DNA from: Gemmatimonas phototrophica
GTDB lineage: Bacteria > Gemmatimonadota > Gemmatimonadetes > Gemmatimonadales > Gemmatimonadaceae
Reading direction: 5' to 3'
NCBI GenBank assembly: GCA_945869195.1
Contig: CAMBNV010000003.1
Location: 186,001 to 250,000 of the forward strand
Length of the DNA stretch: 64,000 nt
Within the stretch, counting starts at the first letter, position 1; each line of letters opens with the position of its first letter. Shown here one piece after another: positions 10,530 to 19,222 of this stretch. Both the position numbers and the translations under genes were made by a program. Below the pieces are notes generated by a model, which saw only the letters and a program-made list of their open reading frames with translations, made no database searches and was not told where the DNA came from.

Positions 10530-10627
10530 CGATCCGATGCGCTCGACCGCGCCGCTCGGCAGCGTAATGCTGATGGCCCTAGATGCGGGGCGTGCGAGGG
10601 TCGTCGCATCCTGAACTGGAGGTCGTG

Positions 10628-11167
10628 GTGTCGCTCGACGTGCAAATGGACGAGGTCCCGGAGTCTGAGCTGGGGGCGGTGGACTATCGCTGGGACGGCG
10701 AGACGGAGATACTGTGCGTGACGCTGCGCTCGACCGGCGTGAGCGAGGGCGTGACTGGCTCGATCGATATTGAAGGGACCGACGGTGCGTGGCTCACGCT
10801 CGAGCTCAGTGCCGGGCGACTCGCGGCGATTGAGGTCGCGGCCTGGCCCGACGTGCGGACGGTCGATCCACTCGAGCCGCCCGTCCCCGTCGGTTCGGCT
10901 CGACTGCGAGTGCCCTCGCGCCTCGGAGGCGCGGCTGGGGCGGCTGCCGAGGTGGCGGTCGAGGTGGCGGTCGAGGCGCTCGAAGTCAACACGCTGATCC
11001 GGGCGGTAGCCGACAGGGCCGAGCGGACGATACACTTCCGCATTGGTTCGCAGCGTTCGAGTCGGACCATACGCGTGGCGCACGATGTGATGATTGCGGT
11101 CGATTCGCGCTCGCGCATCGCCGGGCTCTGGCTCCTCAACGTTCCCCCGTTCCCAACCACCCCATGA
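10628..11167 (+). CDS. Protein of unknown function upstream of the end-processing cluster
   Basis: About 179 residues, starting at GTG 10628 behind a TGGAGG ribosome-binding site. I do not recognise a family. The C-terminal 60 residues (RIGSQRSSRTIRVAHDVMIAVD followed by GLWLLNVPPF) resemble short beta-rich DUF2283-like modules, where a conserved Asp lies in a GxLW-type strand, but the match is weak. The middle contains an Ala/Val/Glu tract (AEVAVEVAVEALEV). Its stop overlaps the start of the AsnC/RAM gene (ATGA, 11164-11167), so the two are translationally coupled. Confidence 0.6.
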   Translation: MSLDVQMDEVPESELGAVDYRWDGETEILCVTLRSTGVSEGVTGSIDIEGTDGAWLTLELSAGRLAAIEVAAWPDVRTVDPLEPPVPVGSARLRVPSRLGGAAGAAAEVAVEVAVEALEVNTLIRAVADRAERTIHFRIGSQRSSRTIRVAHDVMIAVDSRSRIAGLWLLNVPPFPTTP

Positions 11168-11454: not shown

Positions 11455-12504
11455 ATGGACGTGAAGGCTCTTAGGGTCGCGATGGCAGGAGATCGACACA
11501 TTCAACCCATCGCCGCCCCGGACGCGGGGGCGGCAAACATTCGCCTGGCACTCCGTGCCCTGCGTGATAGTGGGCTGGAGGCCGGCGCCCGAGGGGCGTC
11601 ACTCGAAGTGCAGCCGCAAAGCGACCGGCCGCCCCGACTCGAGCGGGCGACCCCATTCGAAGGCTCCCGAATCGGCGTTCGTGCGGTTCCCGGTGCGCCC
11701 GTGGTGGGATTTCGCGCGTTCCTCGACGGGATCCAACGTTCGCAGGTCATCGCGTACGCGGGCGGCATTCCGCTTGTGCACGGCGCGGTCGCCGCGGCGA
11801 TCCGAGAACGCACCGACCGCCGCCTGCATACCTGGGGAACGCCGCAGATCGCTCAGGCGCTGTTTGCGCCACATGCGCTGCTTGACGCGACACTGCTCGC
11901 GTCGCTCGGTGCGCGGCTCACGGTGGTCGACACGCTCGCCAGCACGGGTGCGTCGGCACGCGATTTCGACGCCCCGTCGGCCGCCGCGCACCACCCACAG
12001 GAGCTCGTGGCGCGAGCACTCACGGCGGTTCAACGCGCGCGCGAGTCCGCCGAGTTGGCGCTCGTAGCGGAGTGGGTCGCACGCGGTGAGGGCCCGCTGT
12101 TGGTGGACGGTGGGACGAGCGGGAGTGCGGGCGCCGCGACGAGCGCGCACATCGTCGGCGTGATCAAGTCGCACCGCACGCTCTACGCCGACGAGGCCGC
12201 CCTGCCGCTCGTGCTCGGGCTACGGGAGGGGGAGCGCACGACCGCAATGACCGTCTCATCGCCGCGGCGGCATCCGGTTATGTCGTGGTATCTCCGCCTG
12301 CGCGAGCCCTCGTCGCGCTCGCCGCTTTTTGGGCTCGTGCGCGTCGAAACCGCGCGCGCGGACGACGTGACCGAACGCGCCGACCTCGTTTCGCGATGGC
12401 TGCTCGCGGAGCGCACGCCGGTCGCGCTGCCCGACCAACGCTGGGATGTGATGGTCTACGGTATCCGCGAGTGCGAGCAGTACCTTACGGCCATCCTCAG
12501 ATGA
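11455..12504 (+). CDS. NurA-like 5'-3' nuclease
   Basis: This 349-residue protein matches the NurA outline rather than giving a clear end-to-end match. A first acidic motif FLDGIQR (D91) precedes IAYAGGIPLVHG. A second, LLVDGGTS (D218), is followed by HIVGVIKSH (K238), the block NurA proteins show as DGS...VGxxK. NurA proteins are RNase H-like nucleases that form a ring complex with HerA and trim DNA ends. Here the next gene is a HerA-like ATPase eight bases downstream and mre11/rad50 homologues follow, which strongly supports the assignment. Start ATG 11455; ATG 11482 is an alternative. Confidence 0.72.
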   Translation: MDVKALRVAMAGDRHIQPIAAPDAGAANIRLALRALRDSGLEAGARGASLEVQPQSDRPPRLERATPFEGSRIGVRAVPGAPVVGFRAFLDGIQRSQVIAYAGGIPLVHGAVAAAIRERTDRRLHTWGTPQIAQALFAPHALLDATLLASLGARLTVVDTLASTGASARDFDAPSAAAHHPQELVARALTAVQRARESAELALVAEWVARGEGPLLVDGGTSGSAGAATSAHIVGVIKSHRTLYADEAALPLVLGLREGERTTAMTVSSPRRHPVMSWYLRLREPSSRSPLFGLVRVETARADDVTERADLVSRWLLAERTPVALPDQRWDVMVYGIRECEQYLTAILR

Positions 12505-12511
12505 GCAGAGT

Positions 12512-14476
12512 GTGAATCAGGTGAGCACAGCGATCATCGGACGCGTCGTCGCGACCGAACGGCGGCCCAATACTCCGCATCAGTTCCACTTCTGGACCGC
12601 ACTCGACGCACCGGTCGGGATCGGCACAATCGTGCGTGTGGAGACCACGCGTCCGGTGAGTGGGGTGTTGCCGCGGATTTTCGGTGTCGTGACCGAGGGC
12701 TTCGGCTACACTGACCTGCAGACGCCGCTACATGACGTGCTCGGCGCCGACGGGGAGCCGGGGGCGAGCGCCCTCGCCCCGACGGAGCGTACAGAGATCC
12801 GGCTCTACACGGCTGCGGTGCTCCGCCAGGTGCCGGAGGAGCCGTTGCAGCCGGTTCCGATGGGCACGGTCCACCTCGCGACCGAAGCCGATGTGCAGGT
12901 CGCGCTCCGGATGGATACCTATGCCACGGGAGAGACACACCGCGGGATCCCGGTCGGTCTGTACCGCGCGGGCGGCACCGAAGCGGCGATACACCTCGAC
13001 GCCGACTTCCTGCTCGGGCCCGAAGCGGCGCATCTGAGCATCTCGGGCGTGTCCGGGCTTGCCACGAAAACGAGCGCAGTCGAGTGGTTGCTCGCGAGTA
13101 TCTTCGCGCACTTGCCGGCGAGTAAGGGCAAGGTAGCGGCGGTCTGCTTCAACGTGAAAGGCCCGGATCTGTGCTTCCTCGATCAGCCGGCGAGCGCCCT
13201 CTCCGACGAAGATCGAGCGATCTACCAGCGGCTCGGGGTGCCGGCGACGCCATTTGCGAACGTGCGGTACTTCGCGCCCTGGTCGGCGAAGGGCGGCCAG
13301 CTCGCGACGCTCCGGTCGAACGACGCACTGCAGCACAATGTGCAGCCCCTCACTTGGGGACTGAAGGAGACGCTGCAGTACGCCGAGGTCCTGCTCAACC
13401 GCGACGACATCGACGCCAAGGCCGACGCGCTAATCGATTTCATCAAAGAGCGCGTCGTCGACCAGACATTCAGCGACCCCATGCTCGAGCGGTCACACCT
13501 GGTGCGGTCGTTCTCGGACTTGGAGCAGTGGTTCCGCGAGTTGCTGCGAGGGCTCGAGGGGCGGAACGCCGACGTCTGGCGCACGCACCATGTGGCGACC
13601 ATCCGGAAGGTGCGGAACAGGCTCTCGAATATCTCGACACGCTGCAAGGGCCTGGTGACCGACGACGGGTCGGTCAGTGACCTGCCCTTCAAGCAGTTTG
13701 AGGATCGTGCGGTCTACGTCGTGGACGTCGCGAATCTCGAAGAGGATGCGCAGGATCTCGTTTTCGCGCGCGTCGTCTCGCAGCTGCGCGAACATCTTGA
13801 GAAGCGGCAGCTCGGCGTCGACCAGATCGTCGTCTTTGTGGACGAGCTCAACAAGTATGCGCCGGCCGACGGTCCAGACACGTACGTCCGGAAGATGCTG
13901 CTCGATATTGCTGAGCGTGGGCGCTACCTCGGGCTCGTGCTCTTCGGCGCCCAGCAGTTCCGCTCACAGGTGCATCGCCGTGTCGTGGGTAATAGCGGAA
14001 CGTCACTGTACGGTCGAATGGATCCTGACGAGCTCGCGACGGCTGGTTACCAGACGCTCGCGCCAGCGACGAAGGCGCGCCTCGCCACACTTGAGAAGGG
14101 ACAGTTAATGGTGCGGCATCCGCACTTTGGGCAGCCGATTTTCGTGCGTTTCCCGCGGCCGGCGGTGCTCTCCGGGCGGGAGGGTGTGGAGCGGTTCCCA
14201 CAGGCCGAGGAACTCACGCTCGAGCAGTCGGTGGCGAAGGCGTTGCGCCGACTCGACCCGGCGATCACGGTAGGCTGGGTGCAGGATCAACTCGCGCTCG
14301 CGGGCGAGGACGACGACGGAGTTCTGCGCGCGCGAAATCGGACGCTGCAGGCACGACCGGACGATGTAAAGGCGTTCTTCAAAGCGCAGTTGAAGAAGCG
14401 GGCAACGCCGGAGGTCGCAGCGCGCCGAGGGCCGGCGCCGTTGCGGGTACCGCCACCGGATGATGTGTACGGATGA
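12512..14476 (+). CDS. HerA-like DNA-pumping ATPase with non-canonical P-loop
   Basis: About 654 residues, with GTG starts at 12512 or 12521. HerA/FtsK-superfamily ATPases form hexameric DNA translocases. The N-terminal ~90 residues (IIGRVVATERRPNTPHQFHF and following) are a HAS-type beta barrel. The P-loop region reads ISGVSGLATKTSAV (G179-K186), which keeps the Lys-Thr but has a longer loop than GxxGxGKS. Walker B is IVVFVDELNKYAP (D444/E445). The arginine-finger region ERGRYLGLVLFGAQQF follows, and GNSGTSLYGRMDPDEL matches the HerA C-terminal core. It sits directly after the NurA-like gene and about 100 bases before sbcD. Confidence 0.8.
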   Translation: MNQVSTAIIGRVVATERRPNTPHQFHFWTALDAPVGIGTIVRVETTRPVSGVLPRIFGVVTEGFGYTDLQTPLHDVLGADGEPGASALAPTERTEIRLYTAAVLRQVPEEPLQPVPMGTVHLATEADVQVALRMDTYATGETHRGIPVGLYRAGGTEAAIHLDADFLLGPEAAHLSISGVSGLATKTSAVEWLLASIFAHLPASKGKVAAVCFNVKGPDLCFLDQPASALSDEDRAIYQRLGVPATPFANVRYFAPWSAKGGQLATLRSNDALQHNVQPLTWGLKETLQYAEVLLNRDDIDAKADALIDFIKERVVDQTFSDPMLERSHLVRSFSDLEQWFRELLRGLEGRNADVWRTHHVATIRKVRNRLSNISTRCKGLVTDDGSVSDLPFKQFEDRAVYVVDVANLEEDAQDLVFARVVSQLREHLEKRQLGVDQIVVFVDELNKYAPADGPDTYVRKMLLDIAERGRYLGLVLFGAQQFRSQVHRRVVGNSGTSLYGRMDPDELATAGYQTLAPATKARLATLEKGQLMVRHPHFGQPIFVRFPRPAVLSGREGVERFPQAEELTLEQSVAKALRRLDPAITVGWVQDQLALAGEDDDGVLRARNRTLQARPDDVKAFFKAQLKKRATPEVAARRGPAPLRVPPPDDVYG

Positions 14477-14580
14477 CGTCGAGAGGAGCCCGTCGCAGCG
14501 AGACGGGAGAGGTCGACGGTAACGCGCGGAAAGAGGGTGCGGCTACAGTCGCCGTGATTGGCGGGTAGATTTCCGGTCGC

Positions 14581-15819
14581 GTGCGCATCGTCCATCTCTC
14601 CGACCTGCACCTCGGGTTCCGCCAGTTCCAGCGGCAGACCCCCGCGGGCATCAACCAGCGCGAAGCCGACGTCGCGCTGGCCTTCGCACGCGCGATCGAC
14701 AAGTTGATTGCGCTTGCGCCCGACGTGATCCTGATTGGCGGCGATGTGTTCCACACCGTACGACCGACGAACACGGCGATCCTGCACGCGTTCCGGCAGT
14801 TTGCTCGCTTGGTGGACGCGCTACCCGACACACAGATCGTCGTCATCGCTGGCAATCACGACATGCCGCGTTCGACCGAGACGATCTGCATCCTGCGACT
14901 CTTCGAGCAGGGATTCACGGCGCGCGCGCGTCCGGGTGCGTCGGGCGAGGCGCTGCCGGCGCTGCCGATCCACGTGGCCGACCGCGAGGCCAGGCGGATC
15001 CACTTCCCACACCTCGACCTCTCGGTGCTCGCGGTGCCGGATCTCCCACCGGGGACGGTCGAGCTCGCCCCAGATCCGGCGGTGAAGTACAACGTGCTAC
15101 TGCTGCACGGTGAGGTACAGGGCGCGCTCCCGCATGCGGACGGTGCCGATCGCGCGGCACTGCAAATCCCGCTCACGGATGTGACGCGCGTCGGGTGGGA
15201 CTACGTCGCGCTCGGACACTACCACGTCTACAAACGGATTGCGGACCACGTGTACTACTCCGGCTCGCTCGAGTACACGAGTACCAATCCGTGGGGTGAA
15301 CTGGCTGAGGAGAAGGCGGCGAAGCTCCCCGGCAAGGGGATGATCGAACGCGATCTGGCCACCGGGAAACAGACCTTCCATCCGCTGCCCCCGAGTCGCG
15401 CGGTGCTCGATCTCACCCCGATCGAGGGGCGCGGGATGTCGGCGGCGGATATCGATGCGGCGATCCAAGCGGCGATTGCGCGTATCGCGACGGGCATCGA
15501 TGGCAAGATCGTGCGGCTCGTGGCGAAAAACGTACCCCGGCACATCGCGCGCGATCTGGATCACAAGGCGCTGCGGGACTTACAGAAACGTGCGCTGCAC
15601 TTCCATCTCGATATGCGCCGTCCCGAGATGGTGCGCCGTGAATCATCGGGCGCACCGGGGCGTCGGCCATCACTCGCAGAGACTCTGCGCGACGCATTGC
15701 ATGCGCGTGTGGTCTCGGCGGGCGTGGAGCGTGATGCGCTGGTCGCGCTCGGGCTGCGCTACCTCGACGCGGCCGAGCTCTCGGAGCCCACTCGCGACTT
15801 TCCGGGGACCGACGGATGA
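14581..15819 (+). CDS. sbcD: SbcD/Mre11-type DNA exonuclease subunit
   Basis: This 412-residue metallophosphoesterase starts at GTG 14581. All dinuclear-metal motifs are present: SDLHLG (residues 7-12), GGDVFH, AGNHD, LLHGE and GHYHVYK. The C-terminal ~100 residues contain the capping and Rad50-binding region. SbcD/Mre11 cuts DNA ends and hairpins when bound to SbcC/Rad50. Its stop overlaps the sbcC start by four bases (ATGA). Its pairing with HerA- and NurA-like genes upstream is the archaeal arrangement, so it could equally be called mre11. Confidence 0.93.
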   Translation: MRIVHLSDLHLGFRQFQRQTPAGINQREADVALAFARAIDKLIALAPDVILIGGDVFHTVRPTNTAILHAFRQFARLVDALPDTQIVVIAGNHDMPRSTETICILRLFEQGFTARARPGASGEALPALPIHVADREARRIHFPHLDLSVLAVPDLPPGTVELAPDPAVKYNVLLLHGEVQGALPHADGADRAALQIPLTDVTRVGWDYVALGHYHVYKRIADHVYYSGSLEYTSTNPWGELAEEKAAKLPGKGMIERDLATGKQTFHPLPPSRAVLDLTPIEGRGMSAADIDAAIQAAIARIATGIDGKIVRLVAKNVPRHIARDLDHKALRDLQKRALHFHLDMRRPEMVRRESSGAPGRRPSLAETLRDALHARVVSAGVERDALVALGLRYLDAAELSEPTRDFPGTDG

Positions 15820-18260
15820 AGCTCGCGCGGCTAAGGCTCACGAACTTTCGCCAGCATGCCGACACGGATATCGAGTTCGGCACCGGGCTCACCGGCATCA
15901 TCGGCCCCAACGGCGCCGGTAAGTCGACGATTCTCGAAGCGATTGCCTGGGCGCTCTACGGCGGGAACACGGCACGCGGCGGCAATGAGTCGCTGCGTTT
16001 CAACCGGGCTCCGGCGCGGTCTCCAGTGCGCGTCGAGCTGGAGTTCAGCCTTGCCGGTCATCGCTATCGCGTCGTCCGTGGACTTTCGATGGCCGAGCTC
16101 TACCTCGATGATGGCGAGGTCGCGATCGCGAACTCAGTGACGACGGTCGCCGACATGCTACAGCGCCGCCTCGGAATGACGCGAACGGAGTTCTTTAACA
16201 CCTATTTCACTGGGCAGAAGGAACTCGCCGTGATGCAGTCGCTCACGGCGAGTGAACGCGGGCAGTTTCTGTCACGCGTCCTTGGCTATGAGAAGCTCCG
16301 CGTGGCCCAGGAGCTCTGCGGAGCGCGCCGAAAGGAGCTTGGCAGCGAGATCGCAGGATTGCGCGCCGGGATGCCCGACCGCGACGCTTTCGCCGTGCAG
16401 GAGCGCGAGGTACAAGCGACCGTCACCGAGGCGGCGGCAGCGGCGCTCGAGGCGGAGCGGGTCGAACGCGAGACGACGGAGGCGCTCGAGTCGGTCGCGC
16501 CCAGCTGGCTCGCCGCGCAGACTGGGCGGGACGAGCGCCAGCGGATCGAGACCGAGCTTGCGGCCGTCGACGGTGAGTCGCTGGCGCTCACGCGCTCGGC
16601 GGAGCGTTTCCAGCAGGAACTCGCGGAGGTGCACGAGGCGCGCACCGCACTGGCGCCACTGCTGCCGGACATCGAGGTGTTCACCCAGACCCAGCACGCG
16701 ATCGAGTCTCTGCGGACGCTCGCCGTGCACGACGGGCGGCGTCGTGCCGTGCTTGAGGCGCAGAGTGCGCTCGACGGCGAAGTCCGGGCGCTGCGGGAGC
16801 AGCGCGAGGGACTCGCGCGCGAGGTGGCGCTCGCGACCGCGGCGACGATCAATCTCGAGGAAAGCCGCCGCGTACACGAAGAGACGCACGGCAAGCTCGA
16901 AGCGCGGCGCACGGAGTGGGTGCGCGACCGCCAGGAGGTCGAGACCCGGCTGCGCGCCCTGCGTGAGCAGTATGCCGAGTTTCGCGACCAGCGCGACAAG
17001 CTCCTGCAGCTCGGTGAGGAGGGAGCCTGCCCCACCTGCACGCGACAGCTTGGTGAGCATTTCCGGACCGTGCTCGACGTGATCGAACGCCAGCTCGAGA
17101 CCGTCGAGGCCGACGGGGTCTACTTCCGGTCCCGGATGGAGCAGGTCACTGCGATGCCAGCCGACATCGCGTATCTCGACGAGCTGCGCAAGCGCTTGCA
17201 GGAGGATGTCAGTCACCACGAGCGACGGCACGCGCAGGTCCTCGCGGCGGCGCAGCAGCTGCCACGCGTGGAGCGCGAGCTCGCGTCGAAGGATGCGCGC
17301 CTGGCGGCGGCCACGACTGAACTCGCCGGCATCCCGGGCGGGTACGACGCGGACTATCATAAGGCGCTTGAAGCGGAGCACACTCGCCTCGCCGCATTGT
17401 CTACGCTGGCCAATCGACTCACCACACGCATCGAGCGCGAGCCGGCGCTCCTGCGTGAGCGCGAGTTACTCGCCAGGCAACGGAGCGCGCTTGACGACCG
17501 CCGGATGGTTGCAGGGACGCGCCTCGCCGCACTGCGCTTCCCAGAGGAAGAGTATCAGGAACTCCGTCGGTTGCACGACGAGGTCGCGACGGCGTTCGCC
17601 GAGGCCGCGCGCGTCGCGGCTGGTGCGCGTGCGATGCGCCTGGTGGCGCAGGGCGCCGCCCAGCGCACCGCGGAAGCTCGCTCGGCGTTTGAGGGCCTCG
17701 ACGCGCGCGTGGTGGCGCTCGACGACGACCGGCGGCTCCACGACGAACTTCACCGCGCGTACTCTGACCTGCGCACCGACCTCAACTTTCAACTGCGCCC
17801 TGAAGTCTCCGAAATCGCGTCGAATTTCCTGACCGAACTCACGGACGCACGCTACACCGAGCTTGAGCTCGACGACAAGTATCGGCTCATCGTCCTCGAG
17901 GAGGGCGTCGCGAAGCCCGTGATCTCCGGTGGCGAGGAGGATATCGCCAACCTCGTGTTGCGCCTCGCGATCTCGCAGATGATCGCCGATCGTGCGGGAC
18001 AGGCCTTTTCGTTGCTCGTGCTCGACGAGGTCTTTGGTTCGCTCGACGACGTGCGGCGACGCAACGTGCTCGCGCTGTTACGCGGATTGCACGATCGCTT
18101 TGAGCAGGTCATCGTGATCACGCACATCGATGGTGTGCGCGACGGCCTCGACCGCGTGATCTCGGTCGGCTTTGACGAGCGCACCGGGGCGGCGATCGTC
18201 TCCCAGGTGGATCCATCTCCCGATGAGAGCGCACTCCTGTCTGCTGGGACCGCCGCATGA
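15816..18260 (+). CDS. sbcC: SbcC/Rad50-type SMC-like ATPase
   Basis: This 814-residue protein has a split ABC ATPase head and a central coiled coil. Walker A is IIGPNGAGKST (residues 28-38). The zinc hook is C405-P-T-C408. The signature motif is ISGGEEDIANLVLRLA and Walker B is LLVLDEVFGSLDD. At 814 residues it is shorter than E. coli SbcC (about 1050) and close to archaeal Rad50, because the coiled coils are short. It is coupled to sbcD upstream and to the GNAT gene downstream, each by ATGA overlap. Confidence 0.93.
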   Translation: MKLARLRLTNFRQHADTDIEFGTGLTGIIGPNGAGKSTILEAIAWALYGGNTARGGNESLRFNRAPARSPVRVELEFSLAGHRYRVVRGLSMAELYLDDGEVAIANSVTTVADMLQRRLGMTRTEFFNTYFTGQKELAVMQSLTASERGQFLSRVLGYEKLRVAQELCGARRKELGSEIAGLRAGMPDRDAFAVQEREVQATVTEAAAAALEAERVERETTEALESVAPSWLAAQTGRDERQRIETELAAVDGESLALTRSAERFQQELAEVHEARTALAPLLPDIEVFTQTQHAIESLRTLAVHDGRRRAVLEAQSALDGEVRALREQREGLAREVALATAATINLEESRRVHEETHGKLEARRTEWVRDRQEVETRLRALREQYAEFRDQRDKLLQLGEEGACPTCTRQLGEHFRTVLDVIERQLETVEADGVYFRSRMEQVTAMPADIAYLDELRKRLQEDVSHHERRHAQVLAAAQQLPRVERELASKDARLAAATTELAGIPGGYDADYHKALEAEHTRLAALSTLANRLTTRIEREPALLRERELLARQRSALDDRRMVAGTRLAALRFPEEEYQELRRLHDEVATAFAEAARVAAGARAMRLVAQGAAQRTAEARSAFEGLDARVVALDDDRRLHDELHRAYSDLRTDLNFQLRPEVSEIASNFLTELTDARYTELELDDKYRLIVLEEGVAKPVISGGEEDIANLVLRLAISQMIADRAGQAFSLLVLDEVFGSLDDVRRRNVLALLRGLHDRFEQVIVITHIDGVRDGLDRVISVGFDERTGAAIVSQVDPSPDESALLSAGTAA

Positions 18261-19222
18261 ATGACGTCGCACATCGTGTGAGCGGGCCGTTTCAGATACG
18301 TCCCGAGGACGTTCCCGCACTCAACGTCGTATTCAGCAGCGCGTTCAGCGAGCGCTACCGGCGCGATGGCATGGTGGGAGTGCGCGTGCCACCACTGAAT
18401 CCGCGAATCTGGAACTTCGCACTTGAGGGGGCGGACAGCGGCGCGATGCTCTGGCGCGACGGACTGGGGAAGCTGGCGGCGTTCAACCTCGCGCATTTTT
18501 CTGGACGCGAGGGCTGGATGGGTCCGCTGGCGGTGCGCGAGGATCTTCAGGGCCGCGGACTGGGCCGCACGGTCGTGCGCGCGGGCATCGACCATCTGCG
18601 TGCCGCCGGCTGCACGGTGATCGGGCTCGAGACGATGCCCCGTACCATGGACAATATCGGCTTCTACGGTAGCCTCGGGTTTGTGCCCGCGCGCCTCACC
18701 CTCACCCTCACGGTTGATGCGACATCGCCTGCTGATGCGCCGCCGCCAGTGCTCAGCATGCTCGAAACGGGTAAGCGCGAGGCGGCCATCGCCGAGTGTG
18801 CCGGGCTCACCGAGCGGGTCCGCCCGGGCTCCGACTACTCGCGTGATATCAGGCTCACGTTGCGACACGGTATCGGCGACTGCGTGATGTTGCGCGATGC
18901 GGCGGGCGCCTTGGAGGGTTTCGCGCTGTTCCACGACGTGCCGCTCGTGGAGGGTCGGAGCCGCGAGGAGGTCCGTCTGCTCAAGTGCGTACTCGCCGAG
19001 GAGGCGATGATGGCGCGAATGGCCATCGCCCTCTCGGTGCAGGCGCGGAGGAGTGGTGCGCTCCGGTGCGCATTGCGTCTACAGGGGGAGTATCAGACGG
19101 CGTTTCGCGCGCTGATCGCCGCCGGCGCGCGCGTACGGTGGTCCGATCTGCGAATGACGCTCTCAGGGATGGAGGAGCGCCCGCTGGCGCGCGGACTCGT
19201 GCTTTCGAACTGGGAGATCTAA
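18257..19222 (+). CDS. GNAT-family acetyltransferase coupled to sbcC
   Basis: This 321-residue protein has a clear N-terminal GNAT domain: WMGPLAVREDLQGRGLGRTVV (acetyl-CoA binding R/QxxGxG/A motif, about residues 90-113) followed by DNIGFYGSLGFVPAR. The second half (residues about 180-320) looks like a degenerate second GNAT repeat without a clear acetyl-CoA loop. Its start overlaps the sbcC stop by four bases, so it is made with the end-processing proteins. Substrate unknown; modification of a repair protein is only a guess. Confidence 0.8.
   Translation: MNDVAHRVSGPFQIRPEDVPALNVVFSSAFSERYRRDGMVGVRVPPLNPRIWNFALEGADSGAMLWRDGLGKLAAFNLAHFSGREGWMGPLAVREDLQGRGLGRTVVRAGIDHLRAAGCTVIGLETMPRTMDNIGFYGSLGFVPARLTLTLTVDATSPADAPPPVLSMLETGKREAAIAECAGLTERVRPGSDYSRDIRLTLRHGIGDCVMLRDAAGALEGFALFHDVPLVEGRSREEVRLLKCVLAEEAMMARMAIALSVQARRSGALRCALRLQGEYQTAFRALIAAGARVRWSDLRMTLSGMEERPLARGLVLSNWEI

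Follow-up and report, generated by a model that had tools for sequence, protein, structure and literature searches.

A probable DNA double-strand-end processing operon, nurA-herA-mre11-rad50, in Gemmatimonas phototrophica and its relatives

Four proteins that trim DNA breaks, NurA, HerA, Mre11, and Rad50, are best known from archaea, and the standard bacterial machine is RecBCD, which both repairs DNA and degrades phage DNA. We found genes for all four side by side in a 64,000-nucleotide stretch of Gemmatimonas phototrophica DNA (GenBank assembly GCA_945869195.1, contig CAMBNV010000003.1, positions 186,001 to 250,000; C3:186001-250000 in our numbering), here called the window, which comes from a genome of 2.33 Mb that is 98% complete. 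Judging from sequence and comparative data, they probably form a chromosomal operon for processing DNA double-strand ends, which in many Gemmatimonadales would serve instead of AddAB or RecBCD and which here stands beside an AddAB-like pair. Most sampled genomes of this bacterial order carry HerA-NurA with Mre11-Rad50; losses recur with RecC, and some lineages have lost NurA alone. What is new here is a bacterial, order-wide case of a known system, and the added value lies in the pattern of losses.

The four open reading frames (ORFs) are intact and follow one another on the plus strand: nurA (11455 to 12504; 349 amino acids), herA (12512 to 14476; 654 amino acids), mre11 (14581 to 15819; 412 amino acids), and rad50 (15816 to 18260; 814 amino acids). 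Gaps of 7 bp and 104 bp separate nurA from herA and herA from mre11, respectively, and mre11 and rad50 share an ATGA overlap at 15816 to 15819. These short gaps and overlaps suggest a single transcription unit; a promoter and terminator scan gave matches no commoner than in shuffled sequences. In a comparison with 80 named loci from other Gemmatimonadota, herA came after nurA in all 76 loci where both were found; the order nurA-herA-mre11-rad50 was scored in the 42 loci that offered 9 kb or more of room and was kept in 41 of them. This gene order is far beyond chance, and the set is syntenic across an order of Gemmatimonadota. About two-thirds of the relatives' loci have an extra gene between herA and mre11, which we rejected as a fifth component; its product is DUF6263-like and secreted-looking, and it is absent from the window.

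The identities of the first two genes rest on family profiles, with a structure model in addition for NurA, and not on single-sequence Pfam matches, of which there were none at E 0.01 for either protein. The product of the gene at 11455 also had no NCBIfam match as a single sequence. The Pfam NurA model (PF09376) has a cut-off, a library criterion rather than a biological one, that this protein does not reach; PF09376 had no match in its genome, and the best relative scored 4.8e-4. Searched against the PDB, a profile of 31 relatives matched Deinococcus radiodurans NurA (7f6d_H, E 9.5e-5) and the Thermotoga NurA TM1739 (1zup, E 0.011). An AlphaFold2 model (mean predicted local distance difference test score [pLDDT], 87.6) has the RNase H-like fold of NurA; Deinococcus NurA (7f6d_G, E 7e-12) and TM1739 (E 7e-10) were the sole Foldseek entries below E 0.001. 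In VIA-align, 1zup (Z 18.6), 7f6d (Z 18.2), Sulfolobus SsoNurA (2ygk, Z 14.2), and Pyrococcus NurA (3tai, Z 11.9) all scored above Argonaute and endonuclease V (Z 9 to 10.5). On the strength of the model and the family profile, we assign the gene to NurA, with Deinococcus NurA, at about 20% identity, as the best match.

The product of the gene at 12512 had only a weak NCBIfam match. A profile of 17 relatives aligned with Deinococcus HerA (7f6d_B, E 1.5e-59) over both the HAS barrel and the ATPase core, and nothing else in the PDB reached E ≤ 1, so no archaeal HerA was matched. The archaeal HerA equivalog NF040937 gave 15.9 bits against a cut-off of 800, and HAS-barrel Pfam matches were obtained in four relatives. 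The RecA-like ATPase has a Walker A motif, GVSGLATKTS (13046 to 13075, plus strand), that is nearly invariant in our HerA alignment (A2) and aligns to GISGVATKTS of Deinococcus HerA, and a Walker B motif, VFVDEL (13832 to 13849, plus strand; D444 and E445), that is invariant and aligns to its Deinococcus counterpart. The unusual P-loop form GxSGxATKTS is common to the window HerA family and Deinococcus HerA, whose Walker A lysine, K175, is a nucleotide-binding residue in its crystal structure (PMC9960219). By these sequence comparisons, the gene encodes a HerA of the Deinococcus type and not of the archaeal type.

Mre11 was recognized by Pfam (Metallophos, 9.8e-12), and its profile matched Mre11 of Methanocaldococcus (M.) jannaschii (E 1e-25) and Pyrococcus (P.) furiosus (E 6e-18) ahead of Escherichia (E.) coli SbcD (E 1e-7). 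Its phosphoesterase motifs are intact: D8, H10, D55, H93, H176, and H215 are invariant among relatives, and N92 and H213 are nearly so. Rad50 scored 172.7 bits with the NCBIfam archaeal Rad50 model PRK03918 versus 90.6 with SbcC, and its profile matched archaeal Rad50 (3aux) at E 6e-41 versus E 2e-15 for E. coli SbcC; both proteins score higher with the archaeal forms (M. jannaschii, P. furiosus) than with those of Thermotoga and E. coli. In the Rad50 alignment (A3), invariant positions include the glycines and lysine of Walker A (GPNGAGKST, 15903 to 15929), C405, P406, and C408 of the CxxC zinc hook (CPTC, 17028 to 17039), S704 to G706 and E707 of the ABC signature (SGGEE, 17925 to 17939), and D737 and E738 of Walker B (LLVLDE, 18012 to 18029), all on the plus strand. 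An initial annotation of the window had proposed this plus-strand run of four genes with short gaps and an ATGA overlap, the NurA-like and HerA-like identities, the presence of SbcD/Mre11 and SbcC/Rad50, and an archaeal likeness of the short, 814-residue Rad50, and on all of these points we agree. Its term archaeal-style applies to Mre11 and Rad50 but not to HerA and NurA, which are closest to Deinococcus; the module is therefore a mixed set.

A functional clue comes from relatives that have lost part of the module. Distribution was counted within Gemmatimonadota, in 150 genomes of the phylum, 54 of them from the window's family. A strong PD-(D/E)XK match (PF12705) was scored as AddB/RecB-like; because PF12705 scores the RecB of this family weakly, we dropped it as sole RecB detector and searched RecC (PF04257) on its own. 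The module is present in 48 of the 54 family genomes, of which 7 also have RecC, 8 have AddAB-like genes, and 33 have neither, bearing in mind that counts of genomes without AddAB or RecBCD depend on the models used. RecC was matched in each of the six family genomes that lack HerA-NurA (Fisher p 7e-5); a profile search of these six found NurA nowhere, and HerA was absent too. At their loci, gene order follows that of the window: the aminotransferase gene, mre11, rad50, the GNAT gene, and folE come in this order, and nurA-herA is gone.

Five of the six have a complete or almost complete recC: NCBIfam named recC, recB, and recD in one genome (G055), homologues of the three genes lie together in two (G068 and G145), and the other two are G079 and G019. 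A strong PD-(D/E)XK match in G019 was dropped as AddAB; its locus adjoins a DpdJ-like helicase. On a FastTree phylogeny of Mre11-Rad50, the module-less genomes form five clades, or four if one weak internal node (0.17) is wrong. RecBCD lineages make up 25% of the branch length, and the chance that all five losses fall there is about 0.001, in a test that takes the events to be losses, not regains, and relies on a tree of the two retained genes. Across the family, then, HerA-NurA is missing only where RecBCD was found (once as a fragment), and this pattern suggests that both fill one role in the cell. A swap of this kind would be expected of an operon that acts on DNA ends in vivo. AddAB and RecBCD are unrelated proteins, UvrD-like helicases with PD-(D/E)XK nucleases, for which we propose an equal cellular role; they alternate with the module in the family, and by sequence, many relatives have the module in their stead. 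One module-less genome, the small G028, has also lost the Lrp-like gene, and its rad50 (L219 5632-7555) lies in two frames around the hook, possibly through a frameshift or an assembly error.

The genome that holds the window follows a different pattern. A search for recB and addA, which the initial annotation had called for, found an AddAB-like pair (C9:3327-9511) with scores below the equivalog cut-offs, as well as RecJ and RecQ. The AddA-like protein (1,004 amino acids) has UvrD and PD-(D/E)XK domains, and the AddB-like protein has 1,057 amino acids. The module is therefore expected to complement AddAB here. Sequence thus supports the earlier proposal that a resection machine could take the place of RecBCD/AddAB or add to them: here it would be an addition, and in many relatives a replacement. 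The pair (L089 3327-9511) is distant from that of same-family relatives, with 29% AddA identity to L090 and no AddB match, and this weak likeness suggests a separate acquisition.

Several observations weigh against our interpretation, chief among them coexistence with AddAB-like genes. Across the 150 genomes, this HerA type occurs in 84 and NurA in 78; HerA and a strong PD-(D/E)XK match occur together in 11, HerA alone in 73, the AddAB-like match alone in 54, and neither in 12 (p 4e-18). This anticorrelation reflects one contrast between clades; inside the order, no association was left (p 1.0, with PF12705 alone and before RecBCD was counted). We rejected a general rule that the module replaces AddAB on that ground and because the window's genome has both. 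Eight family members, the window's genome among them, combine AddAB-like genes with HerA-NurA without loss. The 18 genomes from other families that encode a more distant HerA all have AddAB-like genes too, and redundancy is therefore no general rule. Of the module-less six, G028 yielded no recB and just a piece of RecC, situated at the end of a contig. Three genomes from neighboring families of the order (G013, G038, and G043) had no match to the module, AddAB, or RecC, and the association with RecC is therefore not universal. Published work adds two further cautions: deletions of nurA or herA in Deinococcus had modest or even beneficial effects (PMC9960219), and Thermococcus HerA-NurA has been argued not to resect and perhaps to degrade foreign double-stranded DNA (PMC12977600).

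If the operon does process DNA ends, HerA, a hexameric double-stranded DNA translocase made up of a HAS barrel and an ATPase ring, would dock a NurA dimer and feed broken ends into it; Mre11-Rad50 would recognize and tether the ends and clear them, opening or holding them; and the outcome would be a 3' single-stranded tail for RecA. The HerA threading and the Mre11-Rad50 role are expected from work on Deinococcus and archaea (PMC9960219, PMC4641729, PMC2288612), and by analogy with these characterized relatives we expect the proteins to form a complex and to share the polarity of resection and the sequence of steps. Bacterial HerA-NurA has been described from few bacteria, such as Deinococcus-Thermus, and that of Deinococcus carries out DNA-end resection in vitro (PMC9960219). 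Whether HerA-NurA resects ends in cells is disputed (against, PMC12977600; for, PMC4351679 and PMC9960219). The losses and swaps reported here amount to natural knockouts, with which genetic work on culturable Gemmatimonadota can address this question. Our search of the open literature found no paper on HerA-NurA in Gemmatimonadota; subscription work, such as a 2004 HerA-FtsK survey, may note bacterial clusters.

The module combines features of two known systems. D. radiodurans HerA-NurA (PDB 7f6d, 7wrw) has the same HerA architecture and NurA fold but has been described without Mre11-Rad50 (PMC12977600), whereas the window pair is linked to mre11-rad50. The archaeal nurA-herA-mre11-rad50 operon of Sulfolobus, Pyrococcus, and Thermococcus unites the same four functions and has the closer Mre11-Rad50, and its NurA structures match our model; it differs in its HerA and NurA, and the window-type module is dispensable in relatives, having been lost in genomes with RecC. 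It is possible, if somewhat doubtful, that HerA-NurA and RecBCD are interchangeable and have displaced one another in bacterial evolution, and that several Gemmatimonadales lineages in which AddAB and RecBCD were not found run a HerA-Mre11-Rad50 machine without NurA.

Exchange with RecBCD fits both repair and defense: RecBCD mends DNA and also destroys foreign DNA, so that the swap by itself cannot separate the two roles. An antiphage system, in which HerA and a nuclease shred foreign double-stranded DNA ends that Mre11-Rad50 helps to detect, would agree with the partnership of bacterial HerA with defense nucleases (PMC11291478) and with the cutting of both strands by HerA-NurA of T. kodakarensis (PMC12977600). 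A PADLOC scan of the four module proteins matched HerA to mad8 (5e-11) and Rad50 to mad3 (2e-30) of the MADS models. We nevertheless consider a defense role unlikely: the module genes are core and syntenic over the whole order, between an aminotransferase gene and folate genes, rather than patchy or island-borne; each genome has one copy; and the neighbors examined are housekeeping genes.

Six genomes of a neighboring family (loci L098, L099, L101, L102, L106, and L107) have lost nurA alone. They keep full-length herA-mre11-rad50 at the same locus, except that rad50 lies beyond the contig end in G121, and a profile search found nurA neither at the locus nor elsewhere in them. One (G018) has an AddAB-like gene; the other five had no AddAB-like or RecC matches. 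Together with the binding of Mre11 to HerA in Sulfolobus (PMC2288612), these genomes could mean that HerA and Mre11-Rad50 are the functional core and NurA an optional accessory nuclease. We think this rather improbable, since nurA is retained in 78 of the 84 genomes with this HerA and the joint loss of nurA and herA where RecC is present makes NurA-HerA the likelier unit. In a HerA tree, the nurA-less genomes are six separate tips. Their ATPase motifs are intact, and invariant positions are broken in 20 of 264 cells of the HAS barrel versus 14 of 732 cells of the two ATPase parts; the HAS/core conservation ratio is below that of 25 relatives that have NurA (p 0.02), a difference that stems from four of the six. 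In Deinococcus, the HAS barrel is the part that NurA binds (PMC9960219), and this drift would fit both a HerA-NurA interaction in this lineage and, in genomes that lost NurA, a role for HerA that does not depend on it. Alternatively, the nurA-less HerA may be decaying or may have another partner such as RecJ.

Loss of nuclease residues in the product of the gene at 11455, which the initial annotation had named as a refuting result, was not seen. D91 of the FLDG motif (11725 to 11727), a putative metal ligand, and the putative catalytic acids E200 (12052 to 12054) and D218 of the DG motif (12106 to 12108), all on the plus strand, show no variation over the 61 sequences of our NurA alignment (A5), nor do R281, E298, D327, and Y335; E200 and D218 are also invariant in a wider NurA set (A6). 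By motif rather than superposition, D91 would be the counterpart of the Sulfolobus NurA catalytic D58, whose surroundings resemble FLDG (PMC4641729). It is thus very improbable that NurA is a catalytically dead scaffold with Mre11 alone cutting, despite its score below the Pfam NurA model and the G in place of D91 in one distant relative (G015, L047 9750-10622).

A second type of cluster with the same four functions (herA, sbcD, sbcC, and nurA) occurs in families f5 to f7 of the phylum (L091 1540-8449 and L092, L093, L094, L095, L096, and L097). It differs in its bacterial-type SbcCD, its varying gene order, and the AddAB-like genes alongside, and in one of these clusters NurA is above the Pfam cut-off.

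Around the window-type module, the conserved neighbors are an aminotransferase gene and an Lrp-like gene upstream and a GNAT gene, a PTPS-like gene, and folE downstream. The GNAT acetyltransferase gene of the window (18257 to 19222, plus strand; Pfam Acetyltransf_1, 6.5e-12) overlaps rad50 by 4 bp, and its counterpart lies close behind rad50 in 48 named loci; it keeps company with mre11-rad50 across most of the order, also where nurA-herA is gone. An uncharacterized ORF of the window (10583 to 11167; 194 amino acids, no Pfam match) has a look-alike that adjoins herA in several nurA-less genomes.

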